Origin: Alphaproteobacteria bacterium
GTDB taxonomy: Bacteria; Pseudomonadota; Alphaproteobacteria; Rhizobiales; Xanthobacteraceae
Reading direction: 5' to 3'
NCBI GenBank assembly: GCA_016869215.1
Contig: VGEP01000027.1
Coordinates: 1-62,882 of the forward strand
Length of the DNA stretch: 62,882 nucleotides
The notes under the pieces were generated by a model. That model had not been told where the DNA came from. It made no database searches and saw only the letters and a program-made list of their open reading frames with translations. Made by a program: the position numbers and the translations under genes. Below, piece after piece: positions 18,005 through 42,688 of this stretch; positions within the stretch are counted from its first letter, which is position 1, and each line of letters starts with the position of its first letter.

Positions 18005-18165
18005 GCCAAAGTGCGGAGCCGCAGTGGCCGTCGGAGCTATGATCCCGGGAACCTACAGAAGTAGGTGGGCGCCATATGTCCGGATCCACGGACCCGGTCA
18101 GGGACAGCTCCCGTAGGGATCGTAAGGCCCCGGGGAAGTGACTCCAGACGCACCCCGCAGCCCCG
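18005..18165 (-). ncRNA. ssrS: 6S RNA
   Basis: The untranslated stretch upstream of fau and downstream of zapA is the classical 6S location. On the minus strand the ends pair (TGCGGGG at 18159-18153 with CTCCGCA at 18018-18012). The interior holds GGCCTTACGATCCCTACGGG, GTCCCTGACCGGGTC and ACCTACTTCTGTAGGT followed by CCCGGGATCA, the pattern I recall for alphaproteobacterial 6S RNA. It would fold into a long hairpin with a central bulge that mimics an open promoter and sequesters sigma70 RNA polymerase. The ends are estimated from the terminal pairing. Confidence 0.85.
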
Positions 18166-18215
18166 CGAGGGGGAATGTAGTGAGTCAGAGCGCAACGCGC
18201 CACTGGGACTTTGAA

Positions 18216-41597: not shown

Positions 41598-41792
41598 ATG
41601 CCAGCCATCGACGACGACGACCGGCCGAAAAAGAAAATCGTCCATGAGATCGGGCAGGACCTGACGCTGCTGTCGGTCGGCGAACTGACCGAACGCGTCG
41701 CAATTCTCAAGGACGAGATCGCGCGCCTGGAAGCCAACATGGCGAGCAAGCAGGCGTCGAAGTCGGCGGCGGATTTGTTTTTCAAGAAGTGA
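41598..41792 (+). CDS. DUF1192 family small protein
   Basis: Acidic then coiled-coil protein of 64 residues (DDDDRPKKKI, then LTLLSVGELTERVAILKDEI). The family is alphaproteobacterial and uncharacterised. GGAG lies 7 nt before the ATG. It lies upstream of the candidate small RNA and rcdA on the same strand. Confidence 0.85.
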   Translation: MPAIDDDDRPKKKIVHEIGQDLTLLSVGELTERVAILKDEIARLEANMASKQASKSAADLFFKK

Positions 41793-41903
41793 CCGAGCGC
41801 ACGTTCCGCCTTTGCGCTCACGCGCCTCGGCGGACGCTCGCACCCCGGAACGGCGCCGGATTTGTTCACCCGGCATTAACCATAATTTTTCGGAACCAGG
41901 GAT

Positions 41904-41918
41904 TTAACGGTTAATTAA
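41904..41918 (+). promoter_or_regulatory. CtrA-type binding site TTAA-N7-TTAA
   Basis: TTAACGGTTAATTAA has two TTAA half-sites separated by exactly 7 nt, the full consensus of the cell-cycle regulator CtrA. A further TTAA lies at 41876-41879. It is in an AT-rich island inside a very GC-rich region. Transcription from such sites normally starts about 30 nt further on, near 41945. Targets could be the candidate small RNA or rcdA. Confidence 0.65.
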
Positions 41919-41943
41919 GCTTTCCCCTTCATTACTACCACCT

Positions 41944-42036
41944 GTCCATCTTCATGGACATTGAGTGGCTCCTGTCCACTCTGTTTGACGCCTCCCGTTA
42001 TCAACTTCGAGCCGCCGGCAACGGCGGCTCTTTTTT
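41944..42036 (+). ncRNA. Candidate small RNA ending in an intrinsic terminator
   Basis: The 368-nt interval 41793-42160 between DUF1192 and rcdA has no convincing gene. About 35 nt after the CtrA box begins a 93-nt stretch starting with a perfect hairpin (GTCCAT-CTTC-ATGGAC, 41944-41959). It continues with single-stranded CTCCTGTCC and CCTCCCG segments complementary to Shine-Dalgarno sequences, and ends in a strong terminator at 42009-42036. A frame of 65 codons from 41954 reads through the terminator and is unlikely to be real. The 5-prime end is inferred from the promoter; the remaining stretch to 42160 holds no other signal I could see. Confidence 0.5.
42009..42036 (+). terminator. Rho-independent terminator upstream of rcdA
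   Basis: GAGCCGCCG (42009-42017), loop GCAA, CGGCGGCTC (42022-42030), then six T. The 9-bp perfect GC-rich stem with a tetraloop and T-run is oriented for the plus strand. It lies about 125 nt before rcdA and about 220 nt after DUF1192, so it more likely ends an independent short transcript. Confidence 0.9.
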
Positions 42037-42160
42037 ATGTTTCGTTTCGGGGCACTTTCTGAACGGACGGTTACCATTTTGTAAACTTCGTGACGCCAAC
42101 GCTGGACAGTCCCCTCCGGGCCCGGTCTTATCGACGGATTGGTTGGGGTGAGCGTGCGAA

Positions 42161-42688
42161 ATGAATGAGCGTCCCGCGGACGAAGCGGCGCCTGTGTCCT
42201 TCGGCGAAAAGCTGGCGAGTTCCCAGGCCTTTGCGGCCCTGTTCCGCGACGGCATGGCGCTGGTGGAGGAAACCGCGGCCTATCTCGATGGGCCCGGCCG
42301 CCAGGAATCCAAGAAACTCGAACGCCGTGCGGCATTGTCATATGCGACCGAGAGCATGCGGCTGACCACGCGGCTGATGCAGCTTGCGTCCTGGCTGCTG
42401 CTGCATCGCGCGGTGAAGGAGGGGGAGATGTCGCTCTCCCAGGCCAACAAGGAAAAGTCCAAGGTCAAGCTCGCCGCAGGCGAGCCGGGCGATCCCGAAA
42501 CCATCAAGCTCCTGCCCGAGAAACTGCGCGTGCTGATCGACCGCTCCAAGCGGCTCAACGACCAGGTCCGGCGGCTCGACGCCAACATCTACGCGCCGCC
42601 GCTCGCGCCCGACCGCCCGACCGTCGGCAATCCGGTCGAGCGCCAGATGGGCCTCTTGAAGGCCGCGTTCGAGAGCGACGTTCGCTGA
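42161..42688 (+). CDS. rcdA: RcdA/DUF1465 adaptor of CtrA degradation
   Basis: Protein of 175 residues matching DUF1465: SFGEKLASSQAFAALFRDGM, a three-helix core with LPEKLRVLIDRSKRLNDQVR, and the conserved tail VGNPVERQMGLLKAAF. In Caulobacter the homologue RcdA helps deliver CtrA and other substrates to ClpXP with CpdR and PopA. The start ATG at 42161 lies downstream of a terminator and a CtrA-type box, suggesting feedback regulation. Confident in family; the function is transferred. Confidence 0.87.
   Translation: MNERPADEAAPVSFGEKLASSQAFAALFRDGMALVEETAAYLDGPGRQESKKLERRAALSYATESMRLTTRLMQLASWLLLHRAVKEGEMSLSQANKEKSKVKLAAGEPGDPETIKLLPEKLRVLIDRSKRLNDQVRRLDANIYAPPLAPDRPTVGNPVERQMGLLKAAFESDVR

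Follow-up and report, generated by a model that had tools for sequence, protein, structure and literature searches.

Here, we describe a small RNA (sRNA) of the family BjrC1505 that is encoded upstream of rcdA in a 62,882-base stretch of alphaproteobacterial DNA (the window, meaning the whole stretch analysed), and whose gene appears to include a binding site (box) for CtrA among its conserved parts. The gene is probably a free-standing one with its own promoter and terminator, from which CtrA would activate a trans-acting RNA that masks Shine-Dalgarno sequences. The RNA kind is known, and the CtrA link seems to be the new part: it is absent from the literature searched, whose scope leaves outside the defining paper, most subscription papers and supplements, which may note it. 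An sRNA with wide conservation and no known function gains a likely regulator; should CtrA indeed drive it, the order's cell-cycle circuit would include a conserved RNA output of a kind that surveys of protein-coding genes would miss.

Results

The Rfam model RF02356 (BjrC1505) matches the window at 41892-42037 with 105 bits and an E-value of 2.8e-19 (Rfam cut-off 50), over the full length of the model (positions 1-140), and the match takes in both the sRNA and its promoter. Because RF02356 matches the window as well as relatives, the RNA family is one already known, and the window stretch is a member of it. The same full-length match rules out an undescribed RNA; it was overlooked in the preliminary description of this locus, as was the position of CTCCTGT as the loop of a second hairpin. 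BjrC1505 is present as a single copy in the window's genome, and across the order, with E 1e-3 as the limit, RF02356 had a match in 331 of 397 genomes (288 above the cut-off). A class-wide draw of 289 genomes, a few of them from the same order, gave matches in 30 (14 above the cut-off), the window's own genome among the 30, and the model matched 0 of 14 control genomes; Caulobacter vibrioides is named as a control genome in one of the searches. The family reportedly originates with Madhugiri and others (2012), who are said to have detected BjrC1505 as an expressed RNA in B. japonicum. That 2012 work is cited in the accessible part of PMC4842269, and in the literature searched one paper names BjrC1505 or RF02356, as a table entry. 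Neither the CtrA box nor the proximity of rcdA appears in the family's name line or in the accessible passages.

All features of the locus lie on the + strand. The upstream neighbour is a DUF1192 gene (41598-41792; PF06698, 81 bits) and the conserved downstream neighbour is rcdA (42161-42688; NF051867 equivalog, 208 bits, cut-off 170), which encodes the protease adaptor RcdA; the genes nearest to the sRNA are PIG3, DUF1192, rcdA and L31. The CtrA box TTAACGGTTAATTAA (41904-41918), a TTAA-N7-TTAA match, lies over the expected -35 region and is followed, 26-31 nt past the box start, by a -10-like element, CATTAC (41930-41935), at the position of a conserved TATNAC/T block in a profile of 95 relatives. 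Judging by this -10 position, transcription would start near 41940-41943, and the RF02356 match and the fold predict a transcript of 94 nt (41943-42036). It is predicted to open with hairpin 1 (TGTCCAT-CTTC-ATGGACA, 41943-41960, 7 bp, CTTC loop), followed by hairpin 2 (GAGTGG-CTCCTGT-CCACTC, 41963-41981; four pairs from RNAalifold, and the fold), whose CTCCTGT loop is of anti-Shine-Dalgarno type. The most conserved block in an alignment of 60 relatives comes next (41983-41999; consensus GTTTGACGCCTCCCTGTT, window copy GTTTGACGCCTCCCGTT), with the CCTCCC segment GCCTCCCG at 41990-41997, and the unit ends in an intrinsic terminator, GAGCCGCCG-GCAA-CGGCGGCTC plus six T (42009-42036; 9 bp, GCAA loop), evident from sequence and fold. 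The preliminary description had picked out the CtrA consensus site, the CTTC-loop hairpin at the start of the stretch, the CCTCCC segment and the 9-bp GCAA-loop terminator with six T, and each is present as it described. A 65-codon ORF at 41954-42151 crosses the sRNA terminator, and we take it as presumably non-coding. The sole other above-cut-off Rfam match in the window is a 6S RNA (RF00013) at 18012-18166 on the - strand (81 bits).

Folding of the 94 nt gave -40.6 kcal/mol (z -6.25), with 0 of 200 shuffles as good. RNAalifold, run on an alignment of 60 of 85 relatives that had themselves been picked from 211 as less than 85% alike, supported four pairs of hairpin 2 and eight pairs of the terminator, with compensatory changes in 9 of the 12 predicted pairs, the terminator stem among them. 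Hairpin 1 was not predicted by RNAalifold on this 60-sequence alignment, in which MAFFT aligned the region poorly; a direct stem test found at least 6 bp possible in 75 of the 85 relatives versus 26% of shuffles. A G+C-rich terminator stem with a T-run ends the unit in all 60 aligned relatives, entry to the alignment having required a run of at least four T and no stem. Pairing with ribosome-binding sites is favoured because the consensus fold leaves the most conserved block unpaired, and this block is complementary to the Shine-Dalgarno-like AACAGGGAG(GC). The window copy shares structure, terminator and conserved core with BjrC1505 (RF02356) and differs in lacking one T of the near-invariant core, the only such copy among the 115 of 121 loci whose motif could be read by script; this may be a genuine difference or a fault of the assembly. 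With the T missing, the predicted fold at 41990-41999 has a small 5-bp stem with CCUCC in its loop.

The box at 41904-41918 is exact, and no other perfect TTAA-N7-TTAA occurs in the window, for which base composition predicts 0.04; two sites elsewhere in the window have one mismatch. As the box falls within the Rfam model, relatives for the box test were picked by the RNA core alone (GTTTGACGCCTCCCTGTT; at least 118 loci). Among the loci listed, a box in which no more than one of the eight positions is mismatched lies up to 110 nt upstream in 110 of 112 usable core-picked loci (55 perfect, 55 with one mismatch, and 2 with two), comprising 97 of 98 loci in the main set and 13 of 14 added loci (8 perfect), where the exception, L232, has two mismatches. 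The count leaves out L207 and L208, in which the core lies within unrelated coding sequence, and L127, L153, L202 and L229, in which the upstream sequence is too short. Controls cover the 98 loci of the main set and not the 14 added: shuffles gave a perfect box in 0.7% and one mismatch in 9.6%, and real upstream windows (n=280) gave one mismatch in 1.1% and a perfect box in none. In the set picked by RF02356, which is biased to the box that the model covers, 115 of 121 loci have a box with at most one mismatch; this set shares some genomes with the core-picked set, and some of the 121 fall below the family cut-off. Being conserved across relatives, the CtrA-type promoter goes far beyond a chance match.

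By the RcdA profile, rcdA lies directly downstream on the same strand in 199 of 222 loci (184 by script and 15 with a frame that starts upstream of the RNA end); in two others the gene lies about 1.1 kb off, in another it is found elsewhere, and for 20 the profile gave no match, six of these with less than 500 nt of downstream sequence. The 222 loci count some genomes twice. Among 15 further loci, 13 have rcdA downstream; of the other two, L231 gave no match and the second has too little sequence. The other neighbours were found by tblastn in 85 (DUF1192), 88 (PIG3) and 82 (L31) of 121 loci. Such constancy of rcdA would suit an element that serves rcdA as a 5' leader or attenuator under CtrA control, with hairpins that tune read-through. 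A box no more than one mismatch from the consensus stands between the terminator and rcdA in 15 of the 68 loci whose rcdA start was located by script, versus 2% of shuffles, and this too would suit such an element. This reading is nevertheless unlikely, given the terminator that closes the unit throughout the aligned relatives and the persistence of both sRNA and box in loci without adjacent rcdA. A box with at most one mismatch occurs in 16 of 16 such loci (14 in which at least 500 nt of downstream sequence contain no rcdA, and 2 in which rcdA lies about 1.1 kb off), and L231 has one as well; it is also present in L136, where 161 nt of downstream sequence are too few to show whether rcdA is absent. 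In the 16 loci and L136 together, the box sits -66 to -85 from the core. Five loci were omitted for too little sequence (L040, L113, L145, L166 and L177), and tblastn found rcdA in L040. Since the box persists without adjacent rcdA, the first box goes with the sRNA, and the sequences indicate that in some lineages rcdA has a second box of its own, which suggests a separate rcdA promoter there and also speaks against a leader. As a separate observation, L105-L107 keep core, terminator and perfect box with no rcdA in 2,000 nt downstream, and the next sizeable gene in L106 and L107 resembles, from its N-terminus by eye, an O-acetylhomoserine sulfhydrylase-type enzyme.

The second box is perfect in Sinorhizobium, Shinella and L338. 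L338, a weak RF02356 match (40 bits), led to S. meliloti Ak57 (CP090106.1) and a Shinella record, and in both of these a perfect box, the hairpins, CUCCCUGUUUU and a GAGCCGC terminator lie upstream of rcdA. Because these S. meliloti and Shinella copies reach only 27 and 32 bits against RF02356, below the cut-off, we infer their family membership from position and layout; even the S. meliloti copy, diverged as it is, retains CUCCCUGUU. The second perfect box, TTAACCCTTTCTTAA, lies between terminator and rcdA (L346 1620-1634, L347 976-990, L338 2185-2199). In the accessible text of their S. meliloti study, Pini and others report CtrA binding at rcdA by ChIP-seq and, by qPCR upon CtrA depletion, unchanged rcdA (PMC4433202), the latter a further point against an rcdA leader. 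The sRNA offers one possible explanation of CtrA bound at rcdA with no rcdA response; since a second perfect box is also present, the ChIP peak may belong to either box. A CtrA motif upstream of an rcdA start site in S. meliloti was described by Schlueter and others (PMC3616915), and an agrobacterial study predicted one upstream of rcdA (PMC10469942), with no mention of an sRNA there in the accessible parts of the two papers. The S. meliloti record is labelled plasmid pSymB, and at 3.7 Mb it looks, by size and genes, like the chromosome.

In a profile anchored on the box, GTTWAC-N5-ATTAAGCTTT (95 of 97 loci with the box in a fixed window, among the loci listed), the -10-like block is conserved 26-31 nt past the box start and the first hairpin begins about 39 nt past it. 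The spacing from box to -10 is near-fixed in most relatives and, as judged by the consensus, sets the box over the -35, which is the position of the box in CtrA-activated promoters. The window's genome encodes a ctrA (G000:C50:30985-31665) that is 84% identical to an approximate Caulobacter CtrA query sequence. A CtrA box as a conserved part of the BjrC1505 gene is well supported by these comparisons, and its conservation in relatives suggests, short of proof, that the sRNA is switched on with the cell cycle. The sign of regulation is not readable from sequence alone, so the box might bind CtrA with no effect on the sRNA, or CtrA might repress the promoter; with the box held over the -35 by that spacing, we consider either quite improbable, and activation of the sRNA promoter by CtrA likely. 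The proposal in the preliminary description of a small RNA in its own right beside rcdA, with a terminator and a CtrA-type promoter, is borne out by this conservation and by the RF02356 match. That the sRNA is a mere 3' UTR of the DUF1192 gene is unlikely, because it has conserved promoter-like elements of its own and persists in loci that gave no tblastn match for DUF1192, whose 64-residue protein is easily overlooked.

The preliminary description had also supposed a local CtrA feedback unit, which the sRNA could form by pairing with ctrA, gcrA or rcdA mRNA in the manner of CcnA and GspR. Its place beside rcdA would fit, as would the known action of CcnA, EcpR1 and GspR on cell-cycle mRNAs (accessible parts of PMC8959179 and PMC7143759). 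Duplex energies were computed between the conserved pairing segment and leaders spanning -150 to +60 only, with accessibility ignored (29 of 30 genomes for ctrA and gcrA, 29 for rcdA, and 22-23 for the neighbour genes). The ctrA, gcrA and rcdA leaders gave mean z of -0.31, -0.21 and -0.29, slightly negative where the neighbours are positive (L31 +0.53, PIG3 +0.45, DUF1192 +0.37), and some individual genomes deviate strongly, such as G012, whose ctrA leader has z -4.2. Median p, however, was 0.43, 0.43 and 0.41, so that the energies lie near those of shuffles in the 29 genomes tested for each. With no special pairing with the three leaders, a terminator before rcdA, and sRNA and box persisting without adjacent rcdA, the feedback unit gains no support and is very unlikely.

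Searches for other targets of the sRNA gave an excess of candidate sites and no recurring gene. Sites of the mRNA-like form AACAGGGAGGC-N-ATG number 23 in 32 genomes versus 6 and 12 rows with two letter-permuted controls, two permutations being a thin control for this excess. The sRNA gene accounts for one of the 23, and a single repeated site, followed by a frame of just 16 codons, accounts for three more, so that 19 are left. A shorter pattern gave 61 rows versus 44 for its control in nine genomes, a small excess that stems mainly from three of the nine. Proteins downstream of the exact core complement showed no similarity to one another at E 1e-5 (at least 30 residues), barring the one repeated 16-codon-frame site. 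The shorter complement yielded distant similarities only (25-50% identity). They comprise three pairs inside a single genome and four that link G364 with G216, and in no pair are the two clearly one gene; apart from these, one site was listed twice. Target prediction with the pyrimidine segment, another proposal of the preliminary description, thus returned no conserved target gene. Enrichment of transporter genes after target sites was also considered and rejected, solute-binding proteins following about 9-10 of 53 target sites versus 5 of 26 control sites, no excess, in counts read by eye from N-termini (the 26 from 30 loci of the 44 control sites). Because the target tests are negative or weak, anti-Shine-Dalgarno action is something that we infer.

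Discussion

The reading that we prefer, a free-standing BjrC1505 sRNA under CtrA control, can be set out as follows. The CtrA box would stand in for the -35 of the sRNA's own promoter, and phosphorylated CtrA would switch the sRNA on during the CtrA phase of the cycle. Transcription would yield an sRNA of about 94 nt that terminates at its own terminator before rcdA. Its single-stranded CUCCCUGUU (CUCCCGUU in the window copy) and its CUCCUGU loop would then most likely pair with the Shine-Dalgarno sequences of several mRNAs and lower their translation. We see an even chance that, more broadly, the CtrA regulon has in BjrC1505 an RNA arm conserved throughout the order, with CtrA driving an anti-Shine-Dalgarno sRNA by which the translation of many genes is shifted once in every cell cycle, and that the CtrA peak at the S. 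meliloti 'rcdA promoter' belongs at least partly to the sRNA. If CtrA drives the sRNA, the binding of CtrA at S. meliloti rcdA with no effect, as described in the accessible text of PMC4433202, becomes directly testable.

Alphaproteobacterial sRNAs that act on cell-cycle mRNAs include EcpR1 (SmelC291) and GspR (SmelC775) of S. meliloti. According to the accessible parts of PMC4414408 and PMC7143759, EcpR1 differs from the window sRNA in its position downstream of divK-pleD and in its loop motif (UCCGCCGCAUCU), and it is induced by ppGpp; GspR is likely restricted to Sinorhizobium, unlike BjrC1505. CcnA of Caulobacter is 182 nt long and located at the replication origin (accessible part of PMC8959179); the window sRNA has a predicted length of about 94 nt and rcdA as a neighbour. 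A similar layout, by eye, is that of MmgR / suhB (RF00519), with a CUCC-loop hairpin, CCUCCC and a GCCGC-type terminator. Membership in that family was rejected: the window sRNA scores 24 bits against the RF00519 cut-off of 41, and the genome has its own MmgR/suhB elsewhere (G000:C12:92524-92599, - strand), with no CtrA box (best 3 mismatches). Ten MmgR loci likewise have no CtrA box (best 2-3 mismatches), unlike BjrC1505. Within BjrC1505, one locus (L342, genome G604) carries two sRNA cores in tandem, near 82 and 282 and about 200 nt apart; the first is too close to the contig end for its upstream region to be judged, and the second has a perfect TTAA-N7-TTAA upstream.
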